A stretch of DNA of 21,196 bases from a virus: the IMG/VR virus record IMGVR_UViG_3300010296_000116, positions 1 to 21,196 of that record. One strand, 5' to 3'. The notes beneath the pieces are model-generated. The model was not told the origin of the DNA. It saw only the letters and a list, made by a program, of their open reading frames with translations, and did no database searches. Shown here piece by piece: positions 4,199 through 21,196 of the stretch. The position numbers and the translations under genes are program-made. Within the stretch, counting starts at the first letter, position 1. The number at the start of each line of letters is the position of its first letter.

Positions 4199-6048
4199 TA
4201 GTTGCTACCTTTTTTTCTTAACTCTTCAATCGCGCTTGCAAGCTCCTCTCTCTGGCTGCTAGGCAATTTCATAAAGTCAGGGTTGCTCTGAAGTTTTTGC
4301 AAATTCTTAACGACTGTTGGGCGTTGAGTACGCACTTCGGCTATGCCTCCCTGCACTTCACCAGTGCTTGCATCACCCAACCGTCCTTGTTCCAAGTCAT
4401 ACTTATATTTATCAATCCACTCAAACAAACTTGGTGGCAAAAACTTGTGGTCCGACATAATTGCGTTCAGTTCAAACGCTTCAAACGAACTACTGGTGAC
4501 GTTGTTAAAATACTTTGGATCAGCTAAGGCTTCTGCTTTTTCTGGCCCAAGCTTGAAACGCAATGCGTCTTGCATCAAAGAAACGTTGTCATACGAATTT
4601 GAACTGTATTCGTCCCAATCCGGAGTTCCGTCTAAAACACTTCTAACGATTTCTCTGCGTTCAACAACAGCGTTAGCAAGGTTTTCTAGACGGTCTCTAT
4701 ATGCCCTGTTTGGCATATTGACATCATCAAACTCTGTGTCGTTTCCAGCAAGGCCTGTCTGATCCCACTCACCAAGAAAATCAAAGTCTTCTGAAGAAAG
4801 GGGGTTTCCCAAACGGGCAATCAATTGCCCTGCTTTTGAACTGGCTTCTATGTTGCTAAAAGTTTGGTCTTTCAAGTCCCTAACTACGCCATCAACAAAA
4901 ACTTTTGATTTGTTTTCGCTATCATTCCAAGCCGCTTCCCGCAGTCTTTTGGTGGGGCGAAAACTCTCAACGTTCGTTTTAACGTTTGCTAAAATTGAAT
5001 TAAGTCGTCCAGGCGAGCTTGTAATCTGACCCCCAGTGTCCTCGCCCAAAATATTGTTTAGCAACGCTGACATTTTTTCTGGACTTGTCTTGCGAATCTC
5101 ATTCAAAAACACATCAAACGTATCTGTATCAGTAGACTGATTCGGATACTTTTCCCTAAAATACGCACCCAGAATTGTGGCAACATGAGCGTTTTGCGTA
5201 CTTACGGGGTAATATTTTTCAAAGGGCACACCTAGCCCATCGGCAAACTCCCTCATACCGTCAGCGTCTATAGAGGCACTAAGCTGTTCCGCGATTTCTG
5301 TTCCCGTAAGATCGGGGTCTTCTTGGGCGGCCCTTACAACGTTTGCAGCATTGCTCAAAGACACAGCAGAAATCTGGCTTAACTTAGAAATCTGTTCGTC
5401 TTTAATTTTTTTATTTCGTTCTGTTGTATACGAACGAATTGCCGTCCCATAATTACGGGCAGCAGCTGCTTTAAATTTAAGACCTCTTATTTCGCCTTCT
5501 TTGCTACCATCTTCAATGGACTTCAGCGCACCGCTTAAAGCTTGCGCCACTATCTCTTCTAATTGCTGCGGTGATTGGGCATAGCCGCCCTGTACCGCAT
5601 CATCAAGTATTCCATTGACTTGATTTGCCCAATCAAGGGACAGCTTCGCATCTGCATATGCTATTGCAGTCTTATCGGCTTTAGTTTCATACAAGCCTTC
5701 TAACTTGCGGACAGTATCAGAAATTCCTGTTTCAAAAGTTGTCGCTCGAAGTTCGTTGACCCCAGAAATCTTAGAGTGCTTTTCTTTAAGCGCCTGAAGT
5801 TTTTGATTGTAAATTTCTGGCGCATACTCATTTTCATCTGCAAGGCTATTTAAATTATCAAGCTCTGCATTAAACGCATCTTGCGCTCGCAAAACCCGGA
5901 TGCGCTCTGCGTCGTCCATTTCCTTTTCTTTTTTTTGTTTGTTTAACGCCTCTAGTCTTCTTTCTTCTGACTGACGGCGTTCAATCTCTGCTTCTGCATA
6001 GGGCGCAGCGCCTTTCGCAAAACTAGCTATATCCGCAAAATTAACCAT
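4198..6048 (-). CDS. Internal virion protein, gp15-like by position and size
   Basis: 616 aa, starting at the ATG at 6048 with AGAGG five bases upstream, 8 bp after the stop of the gp14-like gene. Residues about 15-60 are highly charged and heptad-like (EAEIERRQSEERRLEALNKQ), indicating a coiled coil; the rest is predicted mainly helical, with no cysteines evident. T7 gp15 is 747 aa and lies between gp14 and gp16 as part of the internal core and DNA-ejection channel; order, size and helical character agree. I see no enzyme motif. The assignment rests on synteny and composition, because gp15-type proteins are poorly conserved. It could instead be another virion core protein of this lineage. 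Confidence 0.8.
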   Translation of the reverse strand: MVNFADIASFAKGAAPYAEAEIERRQSEERRLEALNKQKKEKEMDDAERIRVLRAQDAFNAELDNLNSLADENEYAPEIYNQKLQALKEKHSKISGVNELRATTFETGISDTVRKLEGLYETKADKTAIAYADAKLSLDWANQVNGILDDAVQGGYAQSPQQLEEIVAQALSGALKSIEDGSKEGEIRGLKFKAAAARNYGTAIRSYTTERNKKIKDEQISKLSQISAVSLSNAANVVRAAQEDPDLTGTEIAEQLSASIDADGMREFADGLGVPFEKYYPVSTQNAHVATILGAYFREKYPNQSTDTDTFDVFLNEIRKTSPEKMSALLNNILGEDTGGQITSSPGRLNSILANVKTNVESFRPTKRLREAAWNDSENKSKVFVDGVVRDLKDQTFSNIEASSKAGQLIARLGNPLSSEDFDFLGEWDQTGLAGNDTEFDDVNMPNRAYRDRLENLANAVVERREIVRSVLDGTPDWDEYSSNSYDNVSLMQDALRFKLGPEKAEALADPKYFNNVTSSSFEAFELNAIMSDHKFLPPSLFEWIDKYKYDLEQGRLGDASTGEVQGGIAEVRTQRPTVVKNLQKLQSNPDFMKLPSSQREELASAIEELRKKGSN

Positions 6049-6056
6049 TTTTACCT

Positions 6057-6764
6057 CTAAGAGCTGAGGGCCGTAGCTGTTTGGCCGGTCGCTCGCCCAA
6101 GAGCCTCAAAGCCTTGACTGCGCACACTTGAGAGCCTTTGCGCCGTTCTGGAGTCGATGTTAGCCGTGTCTGTTCGACCTACTACTCCAATCTGACCAAT
6201 CTGCGTTTCAAAAAGACCTTTTGATAATTTGGCGTCTTCAACTTTCTTGTTAGCCAAAGCAACCATTGACTGCCCTTGAGTTTGGCCAGACATTATTGCA
6301 GCAAGGCTTGCTTGCACTTTTTGACGTCGCTCAAGCTCTCGTTGCTGGGCCTCTATTAGTTGTTGGTTCATGTTAATCATGGAAATTTCAGCGTTTAACC
6401 TGCCCATTGCTTCCATATCCGACATGCTACCAAAAGACGAAAGCGCACCAGCAGCACTTGCTAGCGGAGAAATGTATGGCAGTGCTCCGCTTAATGATGA
6501 ACCAATGGCTCCGATACTGCTAAAAAGAGAAGCTGACGGAGCAACAGAGGCAAAAGAAGCGCCAAGTGGCGCAAAACCAATAGCACCAGGAACTGCAGCA
6601 GAAGCAGTAGCCATAAGCCCCGGCCCTGCGAGCGCTGGGCCAACAGCCATAAGCCCCGGCCCTGCGGCAGCAAGAGTTCCTGCTGCCACAGGAGCAGCGG
6701 CTGCAGCAGTTGTTCCTGCAGCAATACTTGTTGCAGCAGCAGTTGCGGTAACGGGTTCACACAT
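6057..6764 (-). CDS. Internal virion protein, T7 gp14-like
   Basis: 235 aa, ATG at 6764 overlapping the nozzle stop by one base (TAATG). The first six residues, MCEPVT, are typical of podovirus gp14-type proteins. Residues about 7-110 are extremely rich in alanine, glycine and serine with long hydrophobic runs, consistent with a membrane-inserting segment. Residues about 115-190 are a charged helix (NQQLIEAQQRELERRQ). T7 gp14 (196 aa) is ejected first and forms the outer-membrane part of the trans-envelope channel. A short DNA repeat encoding the AGPGLMA motif occurs twice (about residues 34 and 47). The family match is good; that it is ejected is inferred. Confidence 0.85.
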   Translation of the reverse strand: MCEPVTATAAATSIAAGTTAAAAAPVAAGTLAAAGPGLMAVGPALAGPGLMATASAAVPGAIGFAPLGASFASVAPSASLFSSIGAIGSSLSGALPYISPLASAAGALSSFGSMSDMEAMGRLNAEISMINMNQQLIEAQQRELERRQKVQASLAAIMSGQTQGQSMVALANKKVEDAKLSKGLFETQIGQIGVVGRTDTANIDSRTAQRLSSVRSQGFEALGRATGQTATALSS

Positions 6765-8941
6765 TAGTAAGCCCTCATTTCAATATTCATACCCAAAATA
6801 CGCAAAGGTAATGGATCGGTTTGCGTTAATGTAATTGTAGGTTCTCTTGAGTACCCAAGAATAGGAAACTCGTAATGTCCTGCTTGCGCCTGTAATTCCT
6901 GGCTCATATCATCTGTTACTTGGCGAACAGCAAGCTGGTTTCCAGCAACTTTAATATCGTATGCTCCGATAATATCAACAATGCAGCGAGTAATCCTGCG
7001 GAACGAACCATCAAGCGCCCCACGTTTAGCTTGAGGTGTTACCGGCATTGTTTCTAAAACAGGTGTGTATGTGTAGCCTGCCCTGACATCATCTATGCCC
7101 GAATAATCAATTTCTATTGTTCCGCCTGCAGAAACAGTTTCAGTGCCTAGATACAAATTGCCTGCAACGACATGAACTGTTTCATTGGCTAAATGGGTAA
7201 ACCCAGTGTAAAGACGGCTTGTGGTAAACGTTACGGCCGCGTTGTCTGCCGGAGAGCTGTCAAGATCAGAAGATAGCGTCAAAGTCGCGCTGCCGGCCGA
7301 ATAGACTACGTTGGTGATTGTATACGTGCCCGTAACACCGCTAATAGTAAACTGATCGCCATCAAAGGGTGTGCTCGTCAACCCGTCGATAACAAGCGAG
7401 TTTCCTGTTTGCGAGCCGCCGTTAACAAGTGGTGTGCCGTACTGAGACATCGCTCCAACAGCAGAGCTGTCTAGCGTAACGCTATCGTCGTCTGCAAGAC
7501 TCTCAAGGCAGTGGACTGTCGATCCATTAATCGTCCGTTTAACAGCAACAAATAAATCTTCACCAACACCAGCGGCACTTTCAAACGTGTCGCCCGAGCG
7601 AGTAGTCCAGAGCGCAAAGCCTCGCACTTTTTGCTCACGAATCGAGTGCATGTGAACAAGTGTGCCGTCTGAGTTTACAAACAAAAGAAACTGTTCTGGT
7701 CGGGTATCCGTACCGAAGGTTCCAGTAATTTGTTTTGGCACATCAAACAAATGCGAAGCCGTAAGACTCAACAGATCAGACACGTAAGTATCTCGAACAA
7801 AATCAAACGCATACGACCGCATGTTTTGCCCAGACCTTTGGACAAATATAGTTTGGCCCTCAAAAAAAGTTGGAGGAATCCTGGTGCATCCAAAAGTTGT
7901 TTGACGACGGACGGACACATTAGATGGAGTGATTGCCCTAACATCGCTGTCAGAAATGAAGAATTCGCCTGTGTCAGTTAAGATTTCAAGCCGTTGCGTT
8001 GAAACTAGATGACGAATCTCATTAACGCTATTTGAGGCAATACTGACGTCAACACTTTGGTCATCCTCGCCTGTGCCAATGTCAAAGTTAAAAAATGACC
8101 CAGAAGTAGAGCCAACCAATCCACCCGGACGCTGCGCATTACCGCCAAACCACAGCCTATTATCGTGAAATGTGACCGCTGCAGGCCACCCACGAACATC
8201 TGAATAAAGCTGTTCCCGCCATGTAGACTCTGCAACAGTGTGCTTTACAGCCTCTCCGTACAGAATTGTACCGCTTACAACGGTGCTAGATGTGTACCCT
8301 GAAATTAGAATAAGAACCGTCGTGTCGTCTTCATCTGTAAACTCAACGATAGTACCTACGTGATCCGATTCCCAAACGGCGGAACTTGCAGTAAGGGTAA
8401 TAGACCCAGAAGTACTTGACGGCTGCAAGGTTACGTTTGCGTCTGCATATTTAAAAAATGGGCGAGCATGGCGAACACCGCCAGTGTTGTTCTCACCGTC
8501 AAATTCAAAAGGAGCAAGAGTAAAGGTTGACGCACCTGTTCGTGTAATTTGTTGTGTTTTGTAGTCAGGATGACAAACAATAATAATATCGCCAGCAGAG
8601 GCAACGTTTAGCTCGTAGATGTCATCAACGCCCCACGGCGCTCCAGTCAGTGTTGTCAGCAAAACCCCTGCTGTACTGTATACTTTTGCCCCACCGCTTT
8701 GAAACGCAATAAGATAACGCTCGTCACCAGAAAAAGCAAAGCCCTGCAGTCTGGATTGAGCACCTAAGTCGTTAAGGTAAGTTGTGCCCGGGCGGCGCAT
8801 TACTCCGCCTGTAAGCATCAAATAAAAGTTGCGAACCTGCTTCCCACCTTCATCATACGCTTTCAAGTCAGAACGCGCATGAAAGTTAGGGTCTAGTTCA
8901 CCTGCCTGAAAGTTTGTCTGAAGAACACGGTAAGTCGGCAT
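6764..8941 (-). CDS. Tail nozzle protein (tail tubular protein B, T7 gp12-like)
   Basis: 725 aa, ATG at 8941 overlapping the adaptor gene stop (TAATG). The N-terminus has the family pattern: QTNFQAGELDPNFHARSDL, then a VRNFYLMLTGGVMRRPGTTY segment. This is the hallmark of podoviral nozzle and stabilisation proteins, in which a conserved arginine and glycine loop precedes a beta-propeller. The rest is beta-rich with many threonine, valine and serine strands. T7 gp12 is 794 aa and forms the hexameric tip of the short tail below the adaptor, through which DNA leaves. It directly follows the gp11-like gene, as in T7. Assignment is strong. Confidence 0.92.
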   Translation of the reverse strand: MPTYRVLQTNFQAGELDPNFHARSDLKAYDEGGKQVRNFYLMLTGGVMRRPGTTYLNDLGAQSRLQGFAFSGDERYLIAFQSGGAKVYSTAGVLLTTLTGAPWGVDDIYELNVASAGDIIIVCHPDYKTQQITRTGASTFTLAPFEFDGENNTGGVRHARPFFKYADANVTLQPSSTSGSITLTASSAVWESDHVGTIVEFTDEDDTTVLILISGYTSSTVVSGTILYGEAVKHTVAESTWREQLYSDVRGWPAAVTFHDNRLWFGGNAQRPGGLVGSTSGSFFNFDIGTGEDDQSVDVSIASNSVNEIRHLVSTQRLEILTDTGEFFISDSDVRAITPSNVSVRRQTTFGCTRIPPTFFEGQTIFVQRSGQNMRSYAFDFVRDTYVSDLLSLTASHLFDVPKQITGTFGTDTRPEQFLLFVNSDGTLVHMHSIREQKVRGFALWTTRSGDTFESAAGVGEDLFVAVKRTINGSTVHCLESLADDDSVTLDSSAVGAMSQYGTPLVNGGSQTGNSLVIDGLTSTPFDGDQFTISGVTGTYTITNVVYSAGSATLTLSSDLDSSPADNAAVTFTTSRLYTGFTHLANETVHVVAGNLYLGTETVSAGGTIEIDYSGIDDVRAGYTYTPVLETMPVTPQAKRGALDGSFRRITRCIVDIIGAYDIKVAGNQLAVRQVTDDMSQELQAQAGHYEFPILGYSREPTITLTQTDPLPLRILGMNIEMRAY

Positions 8942-9561
8942 TATCTCTCGCGCCTAGAACCACGCGTTGAGCGGCGACCAGAACCTTCAAGAAAACGATT
9001 AACCGTCAAACGACGAGTTGTTTGCTGCTGGGAGTCAATGCCTCTCGCACGAATATTCTGAGCTTGGTGCTGGTCTGCCATTAACTTAGCAAGTCCAGCA
9101 TCACGAGCCAAAGAGCCAGCAAGAATGCTTGCCATATGATACTGGACCATCAGCACGAAATGCGGAGGCCACTCAGACTCGTCGGGGCGATACACGTAGT
9201 CAATTACAAGTGACTCATCTACGCCAGCATTGGCATATACATTATCTCCGTAAATATCATAATCAATTGCTTTTTCTGCAACCGTTACGGCATTTACAGT
9301 TAAAACATCACTCGGAAGCTGATAAGCGGCATCCCAACGAGATGTGGGGGCGTCAGCTAGGCGATTAAGAACCGCCTGCTTTGTGGCAAAGCGCCATCGA
9401 TAAGACGAAAGATCAGCTCTCACAACGTCTTCGTAAAGGTTCGATGTGATAGTTGCTTCCGTAGTTCCGTCTTCAAAAGACGTAATAGGGTTTGCGCCAA
9501 CGAGAACTAACGCACGGGCGCAAATATCAATACTTGAGGTAGAAGCTGTTGGTGCTGCCAA
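8941..9561 (-). CDS. Tail adaptor protein (tail tubular protein A, T7 gp11-like)
   Basis: 206 aa; T7 gp11 is 196. The helical opening (IDICARALVLVGANPITSFE), the SYRWRFATKQAVLNRL segment and the later YRPDESEWPPHFVLMVQYHM segment are typical of adaptor proteins that form a dodecameric ring under the portal and receive the nozzle. The C-terminus is basic (GSGRRSTRGSRRER). The only usable start is TTG at 9561: the frame is closed upstream by TAG at 9582-9580, and no ATG occurs in the first 20 codons. No clear ribosome binding site is visible, and a strong hairpin lies just upstream, so translation may be kept low. Confidence 0.92.
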   Translation of the reverse strand: MAAPTASTSSIDICARALVLVGANPITSFEDGTTEATITSNLYEDVVRADLSSYRWRFATKQAVLNRLADAPTSRWDAAYQLPSDVLTVNAVTVAEKAIDYDIYGDNVYANAGVDESLVIDYVYRPDESEWPPHFVLMVQYHMASILAGSLARDAGLAKLMADQHQAQNIRARGIDSQQQTTRRLTVNRFLEGSGRRSTRGSRRER

Positions 9562-9569
9562 AGGGTTAA

Positions 9570-9591
9570 GGGAGGGGCGCTAACCCCTCCC
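9570..9591 (-). terminator. Strong GC hairpin between decoration protein and adaptor genes
   Basis: Perfect 8-bp inverted repeat, GGGAGGGG/CCCCTCCC, with a 6-base loop. It lies between the stop of the 81-aa gene and the TTG start of the adaptor gene. On the minus strand only TTAACCC follows, with no long T run, so a partial terminator or an mRNA processing/stability element after the highly expressed capsid genes is more likely than full termination. Confidence 0.5.
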
Positions 9592-9598
9592 CTCCTAC

Positions 9599-9844
9599 TT
9601 ACGTACCGTTGGTGGTAGTAACGGTCGCGGAACCGCTGGCGCTCGTAACAACGAGAACGTCAACCGTGCGCGTACCGCCGGTAGAGCCAACCGCGATGAT
9701 TACATCATCTTGGTTAAGCTGGTTGGTTACATCGTTGAAGTAACCGGAACCGGCAATAGTGGCAACCGCGTCAGCAGATTCATAGAGAAAAAGCTGCTTG
9801 TTCCCACCGCCAACCTTGTGCAGATCACTTGCAGAAAGAGCCAT
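9599..9844 (-). CDS. Small beta-rich capsid decoration / head-fibre-type protein
   Basis: 81 aa, ATG at 9844 with a perfect AAGGAGG seven bases upstream, implying high expression. The segment LFLYESADAVATIAGSGYFN followed by DVTNQLNQDDVIIAV matches the small module common in phage head-fibre and decoration proteins, and the C-terminus is serine-, threonine- and valine-rich beta sequence (VVTSASGSATVTTTNGT). It follows the capsid gene by 12 bp, the place where BPP-1 and related phages keep a capsid cement protein. A surface decoration role is inferred from position and module. Confidence 0.75.
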   Translation of the reverse strand: MALSASDLHKVGGGNKQLFLYESADAVATIAGSGYFNDVTNQLNQDDVIIAVGSTGGTRTVDVLVVTSASGSATVTTTNGT

Positions 9845-9856
9845 CAGTAAGCCTCC

Positions 9857-10678
9857 TTATTCGCTGCACTGAACTTCGAACACAGAATTGTCGTCGATAA
9901 GGACGGCTCCCTGCGAAAGCATCGAAGTAACAAGGTTAGAAACTTTTTCCGGAACATAGTTCACCTCGGTCGCGATGTCAGCGCCGGTCGCAATACCAAT
10001 GCCAGACTTGTGCCAGCAGAAGGTCTTGCGGTTGCCGGAGCCATCCGTAGGCAGGCCGGAGTGAACCATCCAAACATAGCCCAGCCAACGCTTAGCCGTC
10101 ATACCGCCCTTGTACGGGAGGTCGTCAGAGCCAATAAAGTCCGCGTCAGCAAAAGCACTAATGCCCAGAAGTTCCGTCCACTGGTCAGGGGCGACAACCC
10201 AATAACGCTGACCGTCATCAGGAACATCGTTTTCGCCCATGTTTTCAAACACCGTAAAGATTTTTGTGGTGTTAATGCCCGTCGAACCATGAACGGTCGT
10301 GTTTGACGTTCCGTCAAGCGCGTCCGTAATGAGTTCGTCGGTCTTACGACCCAAAGCCGCAGCAGCGTTAAGCGCAACAACCTGACGCTCATCGATGTTG
10401 GTCTTCAGCTCGTCCAGACGATCAATGTAGTCCGCTGCATAGTAGTCAGTCAGCGTCACATCAACCGAGCTGTGCGTCAAGTTCATCGCCGCCACTTCAG
10501 CGTTGCGCGCTTTGGTAACAGCCGTTCCAGTGCCTACTTTCTGGAACCGAGCAGTCGAGCCGGTAACGCCAGTGATGTTACGGCCCAGCGGACGGAGTTT
10601 CGACCCCATACGCTGATAAGCAACATGCACTTCCGACTCAAACTGCGTAATAAAGGCATCGGAAATATCGAGTGCCAT
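9857..10678 (-). CDS. Major capsid protein
   Basis: 273 aa, ATG at 10678 with GAGGA close upstream. Features typical of HK97-fold capsid proteins of this group are the N-terminal FITQFESEVHVAYQRMGSKL, a beta segment (TGSTARFQKVGTGTAVTKAR), the spine-helix region ERQVVALNAAAALGRKTDEL, and late strands. It lies directly downstream of the scaffold gene and upstream of a small decoration-type gene. It is shorter than T7 gp10 (345 aa) and more like capsid proteins of BPP-1-type or marine podoviruses. It lies behind a terminator-like hairpin and a repeated motif that may give it separate transcription. Confidence 0.92.
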   Translation of the reverse strand: MALDISDAFITQFESEVHVAYQRMGSKLRPLGRNITGVTGSTARFQKVGTGTAVTKARNAEVAAMNLTHSSVDVTLTDYYAADYIDRLDELKTNIDERQVVALNAAAALGRKTDELITDALDGTSNTTVHGSTGINTTKIFTVFENMGENDVPDDGQRYWVVAPDQWTELLGISAFADADFIGSDDLPYKGGMTAKRWLGYVWMVHSGLPTDGSGNRKTFCWHKSGIGIATGADIATEVNYVPEKVSNLVTSMLSQGAVLIDDNSVFEVQCSE

Positions 10679-10775
10679 TTCATCCTCACAGTTAAAAGTT
10701 GGTGTCAGCGGTTATCCCATTTCCGCGCTGCTTGGTTGTCCGAGGGCCAAGCAAATTTCGTTGTGGGGCCGTGTT

Positions 10776-10802
10776 AAAAAAAGAACGCGGCACTAAACCG
10801 CG
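10776..10802 (-). terminator. Rho-independent-type terminator or attenuator in the scaffold-capsid gap
   Basis: On the minus strand CGCGG (10802-10798) pairs with CCGCG (10790-10786) around a 7-base loop, followed by TTC and seven Ts (10782-10776). The stem is short but all GC. It lies just after the repeated motif at 10803-10815 and about 100 bp before the capsid start, so it could terminate read-through from the upstream operon or act as a 5' attenuator. Confidence 0.6.
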
Positions 10803-10815
10803 CAACGCACATTGA
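10803..10815 (-). promoter_or_regulatory. Repeated AATGTGCGTTG motif, copy 1 (upstream of capsid gene)
   Basis: Minus strand reads TCAATGTGCGTTG. The same core occurs at 14186-14174, 17062-17051 and 17616-17605, always in or at the edge of a gap and always on the coding strand of the late genes. In this copy CGCAC/GTGCG also forms a 5-bp hairpin around TCAAT. I interpret it as a candidate phage-specific promoter for the capsid gene; this is inference from recurrence and position. Confidence 0.5.
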
Positions 10816-10847
10816 GTGCGCAAGGTGGGTCGGCCCTCTACAAAACT

Positions 10848-11597
10848 TTAACGAACTCGGCTTACCAGCTTTTCTACCTGCTTAACGTACTGGTCCCTTT
10901 CATTCGGGTCCCAGTATCGCGGGTCATTCATCATGTCTCGAATATCCTGGCGGGTCGGGGCCTGCTCAGCAATAGAGCCAGTTACGGCCGCCATATTAAC
11001 TGGCGTTGTTCTGTTAATAAGGTGCTCCATAATCTGCACCCCATTGGCTGTAGAGCACATCTGCGCAACTACAGGGAACAGCTCAGCCGGTAGATTTTGG
11101 CGAGACCATACCTCTACCGCGTCTACACGAACACGAGCGTTTTCACCCAAAGCCGCCATTTCTTCGACTGGATTGGGCATCTCAGACATGCGACGATTGA
11201 CGTATTGTGTTAACCCCGCATTGAACTGATCTTGGCTGAGGCCTGCTTCAAAAGCAGTTTCGCGCCACCAACCAAGCAGCGGGTCATCACCGTCAAGATT
11301 TGCCAGAGCATCCCCAACGGGACCAGTATCAGGCAGAGCGTAATCATCCTTGCTGGCCGGGCGATCCGCCATGCGCGTTTGCACGTATTCTTCAGCCACA
11401 GAGGCGCGAAGCTCCTCCATGCGCTTACCGTTATAGCTTTCAAGTTCTTTATAAGATTGCAAAAGCCGGTCGGTATCAATCGCAGCATTTTCTGAATTCC
11501 AAAATTTTTCTGGTACATTTTCGGGGCGCTCTGACCCAGAGGGCTCAGAGGAAAAGTTTTGCCCTTCACTTCCGGTGTTCGCTGTTTCATCACTCAT
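10848..11597 (-). CDS. Capsid scaffolding protein (T7 gp9-like)
   Basis: 249 aa from the ATG at 11597; a GTG two codons upstream is possible, but AAAGG lies eight bases before the ATG and too close to the GTG. The protein is acidic and low in complexity at the N-terminus (SDETANTGSEGQNFSSEPSG). It then has VPEKFWNSENAAIDTDRLLQ and SYKELE, a pattern shared by podoviral scaffold proteins, and ends in a basic helix (DQYVKQVEKLVSRVR) of the kind that contacts capsid protein. It lies immediately before the capsid gene and overlaps the Bbp19-like gene by 8 bp. T7 gp9 is 307 aa. It would assemble inside the procapsid and leave before packaging. Confidence 0.88.
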   Translation of the reverse strand: MSDETANTGSEGQNFSSEPSGSERPENVPEKFWNSENAAIDTDRLLQSYKELESYNGKRMEELRASVAEEYVQTRMADRPASKDDYALPDTGPVGDALANLDGDDPLLGWWRETAFEAGLSQDQFNAGLTQYVNRRMSEMPNPVEEMAALGENARVRVDAVEVWSRQNLPAELFPVVAQMCSTANGVQIMEHLINRTTPVNMAAVTGSIAEQAPTRQDIRDMMNDPRYWDPNERDQYVKQVEKLVSRVR

Positions 11598-11853
11598 GCT
11601 CACGGCCTTTCTTTACGCGGTTTTGTATAATTGCGGCCAGATACCGCATCCCTTCCAAGTGCATTAGTTTATTCGGCCCTATTTCCGGGCCAGACACTTG
11701 GTCGATTGAAATACTGCGAATATATGCTAAAGCTTTTTCTCCGTTGTCTCCAGCAAATACCGCAGCAAACAAAGAGTTTAGATTTTTTTCTACTTCACTG
11801 TTTCTAACCGTGCCATCAACCGATAGCGCATTGTTACTGTGTTGGTTCTGCAT
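11590..11853 (-). CDS. Bbp19-like small phage protein
   Basis: 87 aa. I chose the ATG at 11853 (MQNQHSNNALSVDG), which overlaps the portal end by only 20 bp and has AGG six bases upstream. The segment LFAAVFAGDNGEKALAYIRS and the late MHLEGMRYLAAIIQNRVKKG match the pattern of small Bbp19-type proteins found between portal and scaffold genes in many podoviruses. Function is unknown; a role in head assembly is suggested only by the conserved position. A longer frame reading back into the portal gene exists, but its extra residues look like portal shadow. Confidence 0.75.
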   Translation of the reverse strand: MQNQHSNNALSVDGTVRNSEVEKNLNSLFAAVFAGDNGEKALAYIRSISIDQVSGPEIGPNKLMHLEGMRYLAAIIQNRVKKGREHE

Positions 11854-13417
11854 CCGAAGCCTGCATTTGCTGTTGCTGCGCACTGCTCGCCGCTTGCTGC
11901 AAATACCGAAGCAAGCTCTTACGCTCCACGTCTGTGCGCAAGATTTCTGGTGGAACACCTAAACGTTCCGCCATAAATGCCGCTGCTTCTTCTGGCTTTA
12001 CTGTCAGGGACAAAGCTTGCGGACCAAACCTTGCGCCAATCAACTCAATAAACCGATCAACTGTTGTCACGTCTTGCAGCTTCTGTGAACGAGCAAGGGG
12101 TGATGTAGCAGCAATTCTGATGTCTCGTCCATTGATTTGCGGGACTTCAATCAGGCCACGTTTTTTGAGAATGTAAATAACGCGCTGCAAAAGAGGTTGA
12201 ACCAACTCTGCCTGCAGCCGTCCAAACGCACTGCCTATCTGCCTAGACAGGTCGGCCATGCGCTCCGCGACTTCAGTCGCGCTCATCGGTGTCTTGTTTG
12301 GATCACCGAGCATTTCGTTGTAAAGCGCGCGTCGAATGTTTAACCGCATATCATTAAGGATAAGTTGGGCAACATCGAATCGTCCGGGCGGTGCAATCGG
12401 ACTCAGCCCGCTTGATCCGGGTGCGCGCGGAACAACGGTTCCCGGAACAAGGTTAATCGTATCAGGATTAACTGTTCCATCATCATCTACTTGCCAGATA
12501 CCAGAGATGGCAAGCTGTGCGTTTTCCAAAATCAACTCAACTGTTAGGTTGGTCGTTCGGATTGCGGGAAGTGCGTTGAGCACAGGGCCGCGCCCGTAAA
12601 TTTCCCCACTGGCTTTAGACCAACGGAAAACCACCCAAGGTGAAGACCCCGTTCCTTTGAACTGGGTTTTGTAAACCACCGCTTTGTCATTTTTAGAAAT
12701 AACAATGTAATCGTATGCAACCTCATTTGGGCGCTCTGTGTTTCGCAGAGTGCACTCAATCAAGTCGCAGTATTGCGTTTGATTGGTCATCATACGCGCC
12801 TGCATAGAAGCAGGAATTTCTGCCCCCGGCCACATACGACTGATATCTTCATGACGCATACGTCGCGTCCGATAGACCCCCTCTATCTCATCATTCGGAC
12901 CGGCCTCTAAGTATACGTGAGGCAGCGGTACAGCATTGAATCGAACCGGATGGTTTACGTCACCTTCTTCTACCAAAAGGCAACCCGTGCCAACAGCAAG
13001 GTCCATGAAGCTTTCGTGGACTTCCTGATTAAAGTTACTGTTTTGCAGAATCTCAAAAATATATTCAGTTACGGAAGACAGCTGCCGATCCACTGCTTCT
13101 CGTTGATTTTCGGGAATCTCTTGTCCCGCTTTTAGGTCGGCCCAACGAGCAAAGGTGGGCACAAGTCCTGACTGCAAACGAGAAGAAAACTCCTGCACAC
13201 CAACAACCGCAGTTTCGTCAAAAATGCGATCTGTGCGGTCACTGCCTCCTGTTTCCATGTAGAAGCTTTCACGCGCAGGCAGCGTGTAAGTATAACAGTC
13301 CTCAAAGAGTGGAACCCAGTTTTCACGAATTGCACGAGCGCGCTCAAAGCGGCGCATATACAGTTCTACCGGATCGTCCGATGCAGTCGGGTACGGGGGA
13401 GACTCAACAACCACCAA
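11834..13417 (-). CDS. Portal (head-tail connector) protein, podovirus type
   Basis: 527 aa; T7 gp8 is 536. The family pattern is clear: an N-terminal YMRRFERARAIRENWVPLFE helix, SSRLQSGLVPTFARWADLKA, the FMDLAVGTGCLLVEE segment, then EIYGRGPVLNALPAIRTTNL and the late PMSATEVAERMADLSRQIGS. The C-terminus is glutamine- and alanine-rich. It would form the dodecameric ring at the head vertex that threads DNA and binds terminase and adaptor. The start is non-ATG: TTG at 13417 or GTG at 13414, with AGGA five to seven bases upstream, one base after the stop of the preceding gene. Assignment is strong; the exact start is not. Confidence 0.93.
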   Translation of the reverse strand: MVVVESPPYPTASDDPVELYMRRFERARAIRENWVPLFEDCYTYTLPARESFYMETGGSDRTDRIFDETAVVGVQEFSSRLQSGLVPTFARWADLKAGQEIPENQREAVDRQLSSVTEYIFEILQNSNFNQEVHESFMDLAVGTGCLLVEEGDVNHPVRFNAVPLPHVYLEAGPNDEIEGVYRTRRMRHEDISRMWPGAEIPASMQARMMTNQTQYCDLIECTLRNTERPNEVAYDYIVISKNDKAVVYKTQFKGTGSSPWVVFRWSKASGEIYGRGPVLNALPAIRTTNLTVELILENAQLAISGIWQVDDDGTVNPDTINLVPGTVVPRAPGSSGLSPIAPPGRFDVAQLILNDMRLNIRRALYNEMLGDPNKTPMSATEVAERMADLSRQIGSAFGRLQAELVQPLLQRVIYILKKRGLIEVPQINGRDIRIAATSPLARSQKLQDVTTVDRFIELIGARFGPQALSLTVKPEEAAAFMAERLGVPPEILRTDVERKSLLRYLQQAASSAQQQQMQASDAEPTQ

Positions 13418-13418
13418 G

Positions 13419-13664
13419 CTATCCTAGCGTTGTGCGTTTATCTTGACTACTGTCTTCAAAGCCAGCACCGCCAGCGCCGCCTGTAAACAGAGAAGCATAT
13501 CCCAAACGACCAGCTCTCAAGCGATCCTCACGACGCTCCTCTGCCGCAGCGAGTTCGTCTTCCTTTCGCTTTAGCTCAGCAAGCTGTTGCTCTTGAATTT
13601 GTTTTTGACGATTCAAATCTTCTTGGCTTGGACCGCTGGGTTTAGGCGACGACGGCACACACAT
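13419..13664 (-). CDS. Small coiled-coil phage protein before portal
   Basis: 81 aa, ATG at 13664 overlapping the stop of the gp13-like gene by one base. It starts MCVPSSPKPSG, then residues about 14-48 are charged and heptad-like (QEDLNRQKQIQEQQLAELKR), and it ends in a glycine-rich tail (LFTGGAGGAGFEDSSQ). Small proteins starting MC.P with a coiled coil and the GYASLFTGG-type tail are common next to portal genes in podoviruses. I know no proven function; a virion or head-assembly role is inferred from place. Confidence 0.75.
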   Translation of the reverse strand: MCVPSSPKPSGPSQEDLNRQKQIQEQQLAELKRKEDELAAAEERREDRLRAGRLGYASLFTGGAGGAGFEDSSQDKRTTLG

Positions 13665-14140
13665 TAATTACTGCTCCATGTAAATTTATGAAATGGCTCT
13701 CCAAACTTTCCAAAAGGCTTTGCAGGCAGCACGTCAAAACCTAATTTTTTAAGCCATGCAATTGATCTTTTGTTTTCTTGCCAAACGTAGTTTTCAAGAT
13801 GATCGTACATGTCCTGCCACCCAAGCAAAAAATGCCGAGAGTGCTTCATAAAGAAACTTTTGTTTCGTAGGCTCCTTGGCTCCAAGAAAGAGTCCATTGC
13901 CTTAGAACCAAGGAGCCAGGGCACACCTCGTTTCTGGCCCAACGAGGAAATGCCCCATATGGCGGTTGGTTGCCCATCATGAAGCCAAGTAAACGCACCA
14001 CGTGAATAACGCACTGCGTCAGCTAGCGTTTCAGCAAAAGGCTTGCCGTTACAATAGTAGCACTCAAAGACATCGACAGCTCGGGCATTGCTGGCAATAG
14101 CCTCAATGTCAGCCTTTGTCGTGCGTCTAAATTTATTCAT
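13664..14140 (-). CDS. T7 gp13-like protein with GNAT-type fold
   Basis: 158 aa from the ATG at 14140 (MNKFRRTTKADIEAI), which matches the opening of T7 gp13 (a short strand and then a helix after RPTKSTD). A TTG at 14176 could add 12 residues, but it has no ribosome binding site and overlaps the repeated motif. The segments FTWLHDGQPTAIWGISSLGQ and YVWQENKRSIAWLKKLGFDV follow the acetyltransferase-like topology, the second resembling the last helix and strand of GNAT folds. T7 gp13 is needed for internal core assembly. Here it follows TerL rather than gp12. Catalysis cannot be judged from sequence alone. Confidence 0.75.
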   Translation of the reverse strand: MNKFRRTTKADIEAIASNARAVDVFECYYCNGKPFAETLADAVRYSRGAFTWLHDGQPTAIWGISSLGQKRGVPWLLGSKAMDSFLEPRSLRNKSFFMKHSRHFLLGWQDMYDHLENYVWQENKRSIAWLKKLGFDVLPAKPFGKFGEPFHKFTWSSN

Positions 14141-14173
14141 GTCTGCCAGAAATGCTGTTAAAGATAACCTCTG

Positions 14174-14186
14174 CAACGCACATTAG
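14174..14186 (-). promoter_or_regulatory. Repeated AATGTGCGTTG motif, copy 2 (end of TerL)
   Basis: Minus strand reads CTAATGTGCGTTG, overlapping the TerL stop codon and lying about 34 bp before the ATG of the gp13-like gene. It shares ten consecutive bases (AATGTGCGTT) with copies 1 and 3. As a candidate promoter it would serve the gp13-like, portal and scaffold genes. Confidence 0.45.
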
Positions 14187-15712
14187 CGGGACAAGAAGCT
14201 AGCCCACGTTCGTGCTTTTTGTTTTTTAGGCTTGCGAGTAAAAACATCAAAGTCCCGCCTAACCTGAAAAGGCTCTGTTTTTTTCGCTCCGCCAAGAAGT
14301 TGCCGCCCCTCACCTGCGCCCAACAAAGCGTACTGTAGCGCATCATGGATGTGCGAAAATTTATTTTTAAACGGCCGGTCCTCATACCTGTCTCCAGATA
14401 CCGACAGTCTGCGATAATGATAGCCACCCTGGAATCCTTTAATGATGCTTAAACACGTCGGGTCTATAACTAGACCGGGCGAGCCATCAACCATACGCAT
14501 TAGGCATTGGTTCACGCTATCAAGGCGCAAGGCAACATCGTTCGATGGAGCAGGGCGAGCCTGCAAACCGACAGCGCGCAGGATTTGAAAGGGTGTTGTT
14601 TCATCGGTTTGCGCACGCATATCGCCAGCAGGGTCGCCGTGTACATATACGTTACAGGTTGGGAAAGTTGTGGCAATTTCGTGGCGAAGCAGCTCGGCAA
14701 AGCGAACTGTTCCCATGTCTACTGCAACCAACTCTCTTACAACGGCCCAGCGCCCACGCGGCAACTGCAAACAAAAGGCAGCAGCAGGTGTAAGGCCAAA
14801 GTCCAGCCCAACGTGTACTTCAGCGTTTTCAGGAATCTCTATAGCCTCTTTGGCTATGTGAACCTTGTCGTTGAACTGACTGTAGACGGGCTTGCCCTCT
14901 TCCACCATGCCTAGCCGGTTCATAACGTAGACATCAATCCATGAGCGCGTTTTGCCACGAATGATGTTGGAATAATAATCCGGCTGCAGGTTGTTTACGT
15001 TTTCTGCATTTAAGTTCTTGTTATAGCCGGTGACATTACCCTCGCTATCGCGGATTTCTTCCATGCCAGACGGTTGCGTATAGAACTCCCAGTTATCAGG
15101 CTTAACCATCATCAAGGCTTCTCCCTGAGAGATGTAGTCAGGAACAGGAGCATCGCCTGCCATGATGGGCCACCAATGGTCTTCCTCCGGGGCGTTTGTG
15201 TCTGCAATAACGCCATACCACGTGGGTCCGCCGTCGCGCATAGACGGGAAACGGCCTACACGCATTGTGCAAGCATCTACAATCGACTTAGGCACTTCAC
15301 GCGCTTCGTTGATAAACACGCCGGTCAGCTCAAGCGACAGAAGCTTACGCACGTCTTCAGGGCGATCAAGAGCCAGAAATATAACCTCCGCCTCAATCTC
15401 GCCACGTTTGAGCATATGCGTGTAAGGCACAGACCAGTTAAATTTTCCCCAGACATTTTCGGGAAACCAGTCTAGCCATGTCTTGATTGTCGTGGTCCGC
15501 AACTGTGGATTTGTGTTGCGGATGACGGCCCAGCGTGTCCGACGCACACCGTCTTTGTTCTTCTCCTGCATCATTGCTCGTCGCATGACCTCGATGCAGC
15601 AAGACACAGACTTGCCAGAGCCTACAGGACCACGGATACCACGAAAAAAAGTATCCGACTTCATAAATGTTTTTAGAGTTTCGCCGTCAGGCTTGTACTC
15701 AAGGGTGGCCAT
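14183..15712 (-). CDS. terL: Terminase large subunit (DNA-packaging ATPase and nuclease)
   Basis: 509 aa, ATG at 15712 immediately after the stop of the preceding gene. Residues 28-35 are a Walker A motif (GPVGSGKS) and 130-139 a Walker B-type strand with acidic residues (TGVFINEARE). The nuclease half shows the RNase-H-like acidic residues: GLDFG (D304), GDPAGD (D360, D364), and a late HDALQYAL (D457). This matches the two-domain motor that pumps DNA through the portal and cuts concatemers. It lies upstream of portal, unlike T7, where gp19 is at the far right end. All key residues appear present. Confidence 0.95.
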   Translation of the reverse strand: MATLEYKPDGETLKTFMKSDTFFRGIRGPVGSGKSVSCCIEVMRRAMMQEKNKDGVRRTRWAVIRNTNPQLRTTTIKTWLDWFPENVWGKFNWSVPYTHMLKRGEIEAEVIFLALDRPEDVRKLLSLELTGVFINEAREVPKSIVDACTMRVGRFPSMRDGGPTWYGVIADTNAPEEDHWWPIMAGDAPVPDYISQGEALMMVKPDNWEFYTQPSGMEEIRDSEGNVTGYNKNLNAENVNNLQPDYYSNIIRGKTRSWIDVYVMNRLGMVEEGKPVYSQFNDKVHIAKEAIEIPENAEVHVGLDFGLTPAAAFCLQLPRGRWAVVRELVAVDMGTVRFAELLRHEIATTFPTCNVYVHGDPAGDMRAQTDETTPFQILRAVGLQARPAPSNDVALRLDSVNQCLMRMVDGSPGLVIDPTCLSIIKGFQGGYHYRRLSVSGDRYEDRPFKNKFSHIHDALQYALLGAGEGRQLLGGAKKTEPFQVRRDFDVFTRKPKKQKARTWASFLSR

Positions 15713-16003
15713 CTACCACTTTACCTTATCGGCCCAGTACGCCGCAGACATCTTGCCCCGAGCAATATTCTTGCGATGTCTAGCTTTAAAGCTGGCGCGC
15801 TTCCGCTTCATCTTCTCGGACTCGCCAGCTTTGGGCTTGCCAGCAGTCTTAGCGCCCTGCTCGCCAAAGCGAATCGTTTTGATTTGATCACCTACCTTGG
15901 CAACCACAATATGAGACTTTTTGGGATGGCTGGGAGTGCGCTTGGGCTTATTGTAGCCGCTTACGCCAGCCCGAGCTAAACGAGGGTCTTTCTTTTCCGC
16001 CAT
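15713..16003 (-). CDS. Small basic conserved phage protein with YNKPKRTP motif
   Basis: 96 aa, ATG at 16003 overlapping the preceding stop, and ending next to the TerL start. Residues 14-39 (AGVSGYNKPKRTPSHPKKSH, then IVVAKV), IRFGEQG and the ending MSAAYWADKVKW match a family widespread in phages that I remember as DUF6321; that number is from memory. The protein is strongly basic. Function is not known; nucleic-acid binding is suggested by charge, and the tight link to TerL suggests packaging or head-related use. Confidence 0.85.
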   Translation of the reverse strand: MAEKKDPRLARAGVSGYNKPKRTPSHPKKSHIVVAKVGDQIKTIRFGEQGAKTAGKPKAGESEKMKRKRASFKARHRKNIARGKMSAAYWADKVKW

Positions 16004-16227
16004 TAGTGGACATAGCCTCCGTCAACGCCAGTGCGAATTAGCCGCGCAGCAGTTTCCGGTCCAAAGCTTTCAATAATGCGGTCAGCCTCATAGTCCGTGA
16101 CCAGCTCGGTGGGGTGATAGCGCATATGAACCTTCCGAACTATTGCTCGCAAACGGCGCAAGTCAGCTACAGACAGCTCGCTCACAAAGTTCCATGCCAG
16201 AGGCTTAGGTGCGTCTTCTTCGTCCAT
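16003..16227 (-). CDS. Small phage protein of unknown function, 74 aa
   Basis: I chose the ATG at 16227 (MDEEDAPKPLAWNFVSELSV), one base after the stop of the 100-aa gene; a longer reading would lie inside that gene. The core LRRLRAIVRKVHMRYHPTEL and VTDYEADRIIESFGPETAAR look like a compact helical protein, and similar small proteins are found near TerL in marine podoviruses. It is less basic than its neighbours. No function can be given. Confidence 0.75.
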   Translation of the reverse strand: MDEEDAPKPLAWNFVSELSVADLRRLRAIVRKVHMRYHPTELVTDYEADRIIESFGPETAARLIRTGVDGGYVH

Positions 16228-16228
16228 G

Positions 16229-16531
16229 TTAAGCTTTTTTAGCCTTAGTGCGGCGTTTGCGCAAGATGTCAGCGTCTGCCTTACGAGCGCCACCCTTACC
16301 AGTAGCGGCAGAACGCACACGGCCGATAGCCCAGCTCTGTGGCGTCTGCCCCGGCCGAGAACCACTAGAGAAATACGCTCCCATGCCTCGACGCGCAACT
16401 TGCCGGAGCTGAGTCGCAGTATACGGCGAGGAAGCCGCGTATTTCTTAACCGCCGCTTCTACAGCAGGGCCAAGCTTACGCGAGCCTTTTGCGTCGCCTT
16501 TCGCCTGCTTTTTTGTAGGAGCTTTTGACAT
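16229..16531 (-). CDS. Small basic phage protein with FSSGSRPGQTP motif
   Basis: 100 aa, ATG at 16531. The segment GMGAYFSSGSRPGQTPQSWA followed by IGRVRSAATGKGG is a conserved motif of a small phage family often near structural genes (I remember it as DUF5824-like). The N- and C-termini are lysine-rich (MSKAPTKKQAKGDAKGSRK; ILRKRRTKAKKA). It overlaps the 73-aa gene by 56 bp, unusually long for this operon, and no good ribosome binding site is visible, so it may be translated by coupling. Function is unknown; a DNA-contacting role is inferred from charge. Confidence 0.8.
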   Translation of the reverse strand: MSKAPTKKQAKGDAKGSRKLGPAVEAAVKKYAASSPYTATQLRQVARRGMGAYFSSGSRPGQTPQSWAIGRVRSAATGKGGARKADADILRKRRTKAKKA

Positions 16532-16697
16532 TTTTAGACCGCCGCTGAGCTATTTGGTTCATCTCAGTCTTCGTGAGCTTGCCAGCGCGGTACTTACGCG
16601 CAGTGCTCTTGATCTCACGTTCCTGCGCTTTAGGGTTCTTGGAACCCTTCACATACTTCTTATTCACGCCTCCGCGCGTCTTAGGCTGCTTAGGCAT
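16476..16697 (-). CDS. Tiny highly basic protein, 73 aa
   Basis: ATG at 16697, two bases after the stop of the 34-aa gene. About 26 of 73 residues are lysine or arginine against four glutamates, for example KKYVKGSKNPKAQEREIKST and the tail SSYKKAGERRRKRLA. The middle (YRAGKLTKTEMNQIAQRRSK) looks helical. It is a polycation with no recognised domain and probably binds nucleic acid. Its overlap with the 100-aa gene is long, but both frames look protein-like and end where the next begins in the operon pattern. Confidence 0.7.
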   Translation of the reverse strand: MPKQPKTRGGVNKKYVKGSKNPKAQEREIKSTARKYRAGKLTKTEMNQIAQRRSKNVKSSYKKAGERRRKRLA

Positions 16698-16699
16698 CC

Positions 16700-16804
16700 C
16701 TACTTCTTGCGGCTGTAACGCTTGCCAGAAGGCTTTACGCGCTTGCGGTACATAGAACTAGCCATCGACTTGGCAGCAGGGTTCCTGCGCTGACCGTAGG
16801 CCAT
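16700..16804 (-). CDS. Tiny protamine-like basic protein, 34 aa
   Basis: ATG at 16804, TAG at 16702-16700. It starts MAYGQRRNPAAKSMASSMYR and ends KRVKPSGKRYSRKK: twelve arginines or lysines and no acidic residue in 34 positions. It fits exactly between two small genes (4 bp after one stop, 2 bp before the next ATG), which supports it as real despite its length. Virion-packaged or DNA-binding use is a guess. Confidence 0.6.
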   Translation of the reverse strand: MAYGQRRNPAAKSMASSMYRKRVKPSGKRYSRKK

Positions 16805-16808
16805 TGGC

Positions 16809-16985
16809 CTACTTCGAGCCTTTGTACCAGGAGGCGTTGCGGATCATGTCCGCGTCCATCTTGAAAAGATCACTCGTCTTGTCAGACGAACGAACAACCA
16901 TCCCACGCATATCAGGGGCCGGGTTGTTGTACGGAGCAGACCCTTTTGGCGCAGCTCGGCTATATGATTCACGACTATAAGGCAT
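16809..16985 (-). CDS. Small protein of unknown function, 58 aa, first in TerL operon
   Basis: ATG at 16985 with AAGGA about eight bases upstream, TAG at 16811-16809. Reads MPYSRESYSRAAPKGSAPYN, then a short mixed helix containing SSDKTSDLFKMDADMIRNAS and the ending WYKGSK. It heads the chain of tiny genes leading to TerL and lies 66 bp after the repeated motif at 17051-17062. I do not recognise it. The ribosome binding site and packing support coding. Confidence 0.65.
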   Translation of the reverse strand: MPYSRESYSRAAPKGSAPYNNPAPDMRGMVVRSSDKTSDLFKMDADMIRNASWYKGSK

Positions 16986-17050
16986 ACCTTAATTCCTTAT
17001 TCGGGCCTTTTTTGACCAAAAAAATTTATTTGCGTTACCCCTAATCAGGA

Positions 17051-17062
17051 AACGCACATTGA
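17051..17062 (-). promoter_or_regulatory. Repeated AATGTGCGTTG-type motif, copy 3 (upstream of TerL operon)
   Basis: Minus strand reads TCAATGTGCGTT followed by T instead of G. It lies in the 167-bp gap between TerS and the small-gene/TerL operon, after a terminator-like hairpin and before the first ribosome binding site. This is the cleanest promoter-like position of the four copies. Confidence 0.55.
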
Positions 17063-17104
17063 ACCCTGAGAGCAAATAATGCCGGAGCAACACCACATCG
17101 TTCT

Positions 17105-17132
17105 AAAAGTCTTCGACTTTTTGGGGGCCCCC
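17105..17132. terminator. Inverted repeats downstream of TerS
   Basis: AAAAGTC/GACTTTT (17105-17111 and 17115-17121) forms a 7-bp stem with a 3-base loop, and the perfect palindrome GGGGGCCCCC lies at 17123-17132. They begin 20 bp after the TerS stop. Read on the minus strand, the GC palindrome comes first and the A/T stem ends in TTTT, a plausible weak terminator separating TerS from the next operon. On the plus strand the stem ends in five Ts. Confidence 0.5.
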
Positions 17133-17152
17133 TTCACTACGAATGGCCTTAA

Positions 17153-17557
17153 TCAACCTAGATCAATCTTTACCTGAATATCTCCTAGCACTTCGGCCTT
17201 CGTCCTATCCGGTGGCTTGAAGCCTGTCCGGTCCAAGATGTCCTTCGACGCTTCGAGTTGAACGTACTCTGAGCGGGCTTCCGTAGCCAGCGTTACCATC
17301 CTCGCAGCAGCGCGTGCCGCGTTGGTCCCAAGGTGCTCTGCTACTGCCTTCAGCATATACGCTTGAACATGCGGTAACTTGAGGGTTTTCTGTGCCGCGA
17401 CCCTACCACCTTCACTGTCCTTATAGCCCGCCTGTACGGAGGCCTCCTTCACCGTACATCCAGTACTTACTAATGTATCAACGAGGGCTGCTTGCTTGTC
17501 CGTTAATTCACGGCTCGGTGTCGCTTCTGCAACTGTCTTTGCTACAACGTTACTCAT
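17153..17557 (-). CDS. terS: Terminase small subunit
   Basis: 134 aa, ATG at 17557 with AGAGGT eight bases upstream. Residues about 18-65 form a helix-turn-helix-like module (LTDKQAALVDTLVSTGCTVK, EASVQAGYKDS, and KTLKLPHVQAYML), as in small terminases that recognise the packaging site. A middle oligomerisation helix and a C-terminal DILDRTGFKPPDR segment, frequent in this family, follow. It is first in the minus-strand late region and directly borders the large non-coding region, where its binding site may lie. It is separated from TerL by seven small features rather than adjacent. Confidence 0.85.
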   Translation of the reverse strand: MSNVVAKTVAEATPSRELTDKQAALVDTLVSTGCTVKEASVQAGYKDSEGGRVAAQKTLKLPHVQAYMLKAVAEHLGTNAARAAARMVTLATEARSEYVQLEASKDILDRTGFKPPDRTKAEVLGDIQVKIDLG

Positions 17558-17604
17558 ATCGGATACCTCTTAAAACAAAGAGAGACACACTCTAATCTAC
17601 CTGT

Positions 17605-17616
17605 CAACGCACAGTG
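17605..17616 (-). promoter_or_regulatory. Repeated TGTGCGTTG motif, copy 4 (upstream of TerS)
   Basis: Minus strand reads CACTGTGCGTTG, differing from the others in the bases before TGTGCGTTG. It lies 48 bp upstream of the TerS start. The overlapping TTGACA resembles a -35 box, but no -10 hexamer follows at the right distance, which favours a separate promoter or binding site. Confidence 0.45.
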
Positions 17617-17665
17617 TATGCCATTGATTACGCTAGTGGAATTCTTATTGTTTCACGCACACCGC

Positions 17666-20905: not shown

Positions 20906-21079
20906 ATGTTTGGATTTCTGCAGAAGCGTTGTCAAGAACAAGGACTGTCTTTAGCTGATGTCGCTAAAGAGGTTGGGGTGTCTCCAACGACTGTCTGGCG
21001 GTGGCAAAAAAACAAATACAACCCTCGCTGGTCAACTGTAGAAGCTATCTTGGCTTACCTCGATGACCACCGAGTCTAA
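20906..21079 (+). CDS. Minimal helix-turn-helix regulator, 57 aa (Cro/CI-type DNA-binding domain only)
   Basis: ATG at 20906, TAA at 21077. Residues about 14-35 (LSLADVAKEVGVSPTTVWRW) are a typical helix-turn-helix with the recognition helix SPTTVWRWQ, and residues 42-52 give a closing helix. The protein ends at residue 57 with no dimerisation domain. There is no ribosome binding site and a -10-like box directly precedes the ATG, as for lambda cI made from PRM. It overlaps the next HTH gene by 17 bp. Likely a Cro-like or split-repressor DNA-binding subunit for the adjacent palindrome. Confidence 0.75.
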   Translation: MFGFLQKRCQEQGLSLADVAKEVGVSPTTVWRWQKNKYNPRWSTVEAILAYLDDHRV

Positions 21080-21196
21080 AGCATATCAATCGCTTATAAG
21101 CGCGTTGCGACAACGGCGCGAAGACCTTGGTATTAGCCAAAACGATTTAGACGAAATAATTGGCGTAACCCGTGGTCAAGTCGGTAAATGGGAAGT
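21063..21196 (+). CDS. XRE-family helix-turn-helix regulator, partial at right edge
   Basis: ATG at 21063 inside the end of the previous gene, open to the window end (44 codons). Reads MTTESKAYQSLISALRQRRE, then DLGISQNDLDEIIGVTRGQV and GKWE, the standard XRE pattern of a first helix, SQ..L....GV, and a recognition helix. The rest is missing, so a sensor or dimerisation domain could follow. It is a second DNA-binding protein in the same switch. Confidence 0.75.
   Translation, partial: MTTESKAYQSLISALRQRREDLGISQNDLDEIIGVTRGQVGKWE

Follow-up and report, generated by a model that had tools for sequence, protein, structure and literature searches.

A conserved late-strand word and a co-varying helix-turn-helix protein as candidate late-gene switch in a large group of uncultured podoviruses

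The short word repeated in the late region of the viral record IMGVR_UViG_3300010296_000116 is very probably part of the switch for the late genes, which build the particle, in a large group of phages that are uncultured and mostly marine. A small DNA-binding protein made by the phage appears to read the word, and the recognition part of this protein changes with the word. The best explanation, to which a probability of approximately 70% was assigned, is that the copies belong to activator-dependent late promoters, at which this protein and the host sigma70 RNA polymerase act together. The protein is referred to here as F18, our own label for a small XRE-type helix-turn-helix (HTH) protein family.

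The window analyzed was the whole IMG/VR record, 21,196 bases, and comprises only part of its phage. The minus strand carries the late genes, of which the terminase small subunit (TerS, 17557) is the first and an internal virion protein, at base 1, the last in the window; the early genes lie on the plus strand from 17618 on. Within the internal virion protein gene, three 69-nt tandem repeats, 83–85% identical, were observed at 2202–2410. The closest cultured phage was Pelagibacter phage EXVC031P Hodr (OQ414635; portal 56%, TerL 64%), and a near-identity search of GenBank phages with the window gave no match. Table 1 summarizes the features.

Table 1. Features of the window and classes of site in related phages
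Feature	Position	Strand	Remark
Major capsid protein	9857..10678	-	phrog_3437, E 2e-64
Terminator-like hairpin CGCGG..CCGCG with T-run	10776..10802	-	read from sequence; directly after copy 1
Copy 1, AATGTGCGTTG	10803..10813	-	exact match; class ii; 125 nt upstream of major capsid start
Copy 2, AATGTGCGTTG	14174..14184	-	exact match; class i; overlaps TerL stop codon
Terminase large subunit (TerL)	14183..15712	-	phrog_2, E 1.2e-23
Possible -10, TAAATT	17023..17028	-	24 nt after T of TTT of copy 3; single-site match, weak
Copy 3, AATGTGCGTTT	17050..17060	-	between TerS and small genes preceding TerL
Terminase small subunit (TerS), first late gene	17153..17557	-	phrog_2538, E 3.3e-13
Copy 4, ACTGTGCGTTG	17605..17615	-	upstream of TerS; class iv, start of late region
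F18 N-terminal half, candidate activator	21051..21196	+	cut by window end; profile match E 1e-9 on frame 21042-21194
Class i (relatives)	end of TerL		
Class ii (relatives)	~100 nt before capsid start		
Class iii (relatives)	43-44 nt before ATG of a tail gene		
Class iv (relatives)	start of late region		always continues ACA, giving TTGACA

Four copies of the word in the window

Matches to the 11-mer AATGTGCGTTG with one mismatch at most numbered exactly four in the window, with 0.74 expected, and four copies were reached in none of 100 shuffles. According to our own gene set, the non-coding share of bases 1–17617 is approximately 4.8%, and all four copies were found there on the late strand. 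An earlier note on this DNA had described four minus-strand copies in late-gene gaps; the copies are present and above chance, except that copy 2 begins on the final two bases of the TerL stop codon and not in an open gap. Its estimate of rarity for the bare 8-mer (approximately 0.65 expected, four copies) had to be revised. The 8-mer TGTGCGTT occurs seven times in the window against 1.16 expected, and the three copies beyond the four lie inside genes (12516+, 13431+, and 16312-). Thus, the repeat claim holds for the longer word only. Moreover, when two mismatches were allowed in the 11-mer, 7 matches were found against 8.15 expected, which is not above chance; therefore, the window alone makes a modest case, and the relatives decide.

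In close relatives, the 11-mer keeps 10–11 of its 11 positions at all four places, with flanks down to 15/40. The core of copy 1 is kept 11/11 in L084 and L086, where the upstream flank is kept at only 21/40 and 15/40. The cores of copies 2 and 3 are both 11/11 in L004, L005, and L006, and that of copy 4 is 10/11 in L004 and 11/11 in L006. The terminator-like hairpin after copy 1 is kept in L084–L087, which are close relatives of the window, and was not seen at that place in other clades. A CGCAC..GTGCG dyad at copy 1 was also considered, and it was dropped because it was missing in L084. The capsid leader (GGCC...GGCCC...GGATAACCG-like; window ~10685–10775, minus strand) is conserved also in clades without the word; Rfam gave no match for this leader, nor anywhere in the window and five loci.

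The word and its sister in related phages

The true unit was found to be (T/A)TGTGCGTTG, which is conserved in a large uncultured podovirus group with TerL approximately 65% identical. In these relatives, the word reads TTGTGCGTTG and often stands right after the TerL stop, and it is also located before the capsid gene. In approximately 1.76 Mb of fetched loci, which partly overlap so that not all counts are independent, TTGTGCGTTG had 105 late-strand copies and 2 on the opposite strand; the reversed word, used as a control in the same loci, gave 4 and 0. Four genomes of 25–34 kb (G001, G002, G003, and G019) carry 3, 4, 4, and 3 exact copies, respectively, with the opposite strand free of them. 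When 9-mers repeated near gene gaps were counted blind, the same word was recovered in G002 and G003.

The sites in relatives occupy four kinds of place (Table 1), assigned by simple sequence rules that left some sites unclassified, and extra copies lie near the small genes preceding TerL. The earlier note had suggested that a promoter would be supported by additional copies in gaps upstream of other late genes, and in the relatives such a copy was found before a tail gene. Its proposal of a promoter-like late element is supported by the conservation of the word, by its strict orientation, and by the fixed positions at which it occurs. In L042, L061, L065, and L076, paired G-runs (GGGGGGG-AACACAA-GGGGGGG) were observed between the class iv site and the TerS start; such runs are present in many relatives, possibly as a packaging (terminase) site, and have no counterpart in the window.

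G005 and G016 carry a sister word, TAGTCCATTG (in one case CAGTCCATTG), which occupies the four kinds of place described above and shares T.GT.C.TTG with TTGTGCGTTG. One extra TAGTCCATTG lies on the early strand of G005 (27158–27167, +) and is perhaps a site close to the operon of the regulator itself; in G008, three copies of TAGTCCATTG lie scattered.

A later check drew on TerL relatives in a different collection, retrieved once the idea already existed; the hosts named for these contigs were taken from metagenome bins and cannot be relied on. In L346, L348, and L349, TTGTGCGTTG was located 2, 4, and 12 nt past the TerL match, respectively, and in L350 and L353, TAGTCCATTG was located 33 nt past it. 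These five loci contain nine late-strand copies and none opposite, and two of them carry F18, both of the HKWE type, as expected. In the remaining six loci, both words are absent from the late strand, and three of these loci gave F18-like matches, which are divergent.

In the case of L345 and L347, which are relatives without the word, the TerL gap is closed to a few bases. Hodr, the nearest cultured relative, carries a divergent F18-like domain; however, it has no exact TTGTGCGTTG or YAGTCCATTG, and its TerL and the next gene abut, leaving no class i gap. Repeated-word searches for a third word class in Hodr, G010, G012, L347, and L351 gave nothing convincing. A text search of the literature for the word string gave, among the matches listed, none that was related judging by title.

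F18 as the candidate reader

In gene clustering of twelve genomes, F18 was the early family found in exactly G001, G002, G003, G019, G005, and G016. Its members, approximately 80–110 residues long, are XRE (Cro/C1-type) HTH proteins by both sequence and fold (HTH_3 / HTH_31; HTH_3 scores of 38.7 bits in the G005 member and 24.9 bits in the G003 member against a cut-off of 23). The structure model had a pLDDT of 93, and its best structural match was 3f6w with a Z of 11.3. The F18 gene of the window is cut by the window end, and intact close relatives of it are present in L004 and L291–L293. A second small HTH protein of 57 aa (window 20906–21079, plus strand) was observed just before F18, overlapping it.

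Strong F18 matches were found in all five motif genomes of at least 33 kb, taken as whole records, and scans of IMG/VR yielded 160 loci with F18. Four motif-bearing fragments of 16–29 kb (G015, G017, G022, and G023) gave no F18 match, perhaps because these fragments are incomplete. A profile search found divergent F18-like forms in Hodr, G010, and G012, and weak divergent matches occurred in Hodr and six records without the architecture of the word. Among cultured phages, the search gave only the weak Hodr match and distant repressors.

The recognition helix was compared with the word for distinct F18 sequences having a word within reach, and the type of helix predicted the type of word in 49/49 sequences. 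Where KWE is preceded by H, S, or G, the word is (T/A)TGTGCGTTG (42 of 42 sequences); where it is preceded by A, the word is TAGTCCATTG (7 of 7). As the second type forms one clade (support 89/89), the match between helix and word amounts to one evolutionary switch, and therefore another linked gene could be the reader. The word has also drifted in a concerted manner within genomes, to TTGTGAGTTG in L225 and L226 and to TTGTGCATTG in L258 and L260, at two or three places, and these drifts come without a clear helix change. The late activator put forward in the earlier note is thus supported by an HTH protein that both co-occurs and co-varies with the word.

Promoter anatomy and competing explanations

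Over 130 non-redundant sites, the conserved block was (T/A)TGTGCGTTG, with the next base mostly A or C; it is compact, directional, and non-palindromic. A -10-like hexamer was most frequent at an offset of 24 nt downstream of the T of TTG, corresponding to an 18 bp spacer past the TTG hexamer, and a high -10 score at that offset was obtained in 25 of the 130 sites, compared with approximately 6 at other offsets. The majority of the -10 column was T/A-A-T-A-A-(A/T), and the distance from the block end to the -10 peak was 21 bp. The -10 is clear over the 130 sites and weak at most single sites, including three of the four window copies: a fair -10 was found at copy 3 only, and copy 1 leads into the terminator-like hairpin and not into a -10. 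Copy 4 continues into a perfect TTGACA. The earlier statement that the element lacks sigma-70 features was consequently half right, as copy 4 runs into TTGACA and the family has a -10 at sigma70 spacing. In class iii, a sigma70 start would coincide with the ATG, which needs explaining.

Under the preferred explanation, the four copies would be the upstream half of activator-dependent late promoters. F18, a small early protein, would bind TTGTGCGTTG at approximately -43 to -34, overlapping the place of the -35 hexamer, and would recruit the sigma70 RNA polymerase of the host to weak -10 elements approximately 18 bp past the TTG hexamer. One promoter before TerS would start the late region, and internal ones would serve the packaging, capsid, and tail genes. 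We infer the promoter role, the binding and activation by F18, and the role of the host polymerase from these comparisons.

A phage RNA polymerase of another type could instead read the word directly, the word being the promoter with the start adjoining it. The compact and directional block would suit such a polymerase, and so would the ribosome site of class iii, which lies 20–30 nt past the word and fits a nearby start. However, a search for the single-subunit RNA polymerase (PF00940) matched 0/25 related records, including five of at least 33 kb with the word or sister word (the window phage being incomplete), and the same search found the T7 polymerase as a positive control at E 9.9e-110. 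Two large G003 proteins also matched no polymerase family, and the G003 early proteins tested resemble recombination and single-strand-binding functions. With the -10 signal at sigma70 spacing also against it, direct reading is unlikely, and the suggestion in the earlier note that the phage has its own RNA polymerase was not supported. It is similarly improbable that F18 binds the word as a repressor and keeps the late genes silent at the early stage of infection. Repressors are common among XRE proteins, and many PHROG matches of F18 are named repressors or regulators; nevertheless, 29 of 34 F18 members match phrog_4836, annotated as a CII-like regulator, and the word replaces a good -35 and the -10s are mostly weak, which resembles activator-dependent promoters.

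Less probable still is an action of the word in RNA or during elongation, as a processing site, antitermination element, or pause element. The word is strand-specific and located in leaders, with copy 1 at a terminator-like hairpin. An RNA hairpin after the word seemed real by eye at several sites; however, no excess of RNA structure was found downstream of the word over 100 sites, and the candidate reader has a DNA-binding HTH fold. Chance repeats without function, for which the two-mismatch count in the window speaks, are very improbable and are refuted by the relatives, in which the word is conserved at fixed positions and on a fixed strand.

Of the known systems, activation by F18 with the host polymerase would be like MotA or CII in outline, with the defining spacing or repeat of neither. 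T4, which has no polymerase of its own, redirects that of its host (PMC2988021), and its middle promoters, with MotA and AsiA, likewise combine a phage word in the -35 area (the MotA box) with a sigma70 -10. The MotA box is centered at -30, 12 ± 1 bp from the -10 (PMC2988021), whereas the block described here ends 21 bp before the -10; moreover, F18 is an XRE HTH protein and MotA a double wing protein. Lambda CII and P22 C1 are likewise small phage HTH activators over the -35, the role proposed for F18. CII promoters carry a TTGC-N6-TTGC repeat; no such direct repeat over the -35 was present in the site profiles, and several late sites occur here in contrast to the lysogeny promoters there. 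Restriction-modification controller (C) proteins, such as C.Esp1396I and C.AhdI, have the same compact XRE fold as F18 (Z 9.4–10.1) and activate from sites near -35. However, C operators are palindromic pairs, unlike the single non-palindromic block of the word. T7-type promoters likewise place several phage promoters on the late strand but depend on a polymerase type that was not found in the 25 related records.

For most uncultured marine phages that have no polymerase gene, no mechanism of late-gene activation has, to our knowledge, been described. On balance, the widespread group described here probably uses an undescribed late-transcription system, in which an XRE protein of approximately 80 residues on a non-palindromic 10 bp block would redirect the host polymerase to several late promoters, site and protein having switched specificity together genome-wide (GTGCGTTG and GTCCATTG types). 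From sequence comparison alone, both a site and a candidate protein can be named, together with a specificity swap that arose naturally, and annotators of this phage group can use the word as a marker for late promoters.
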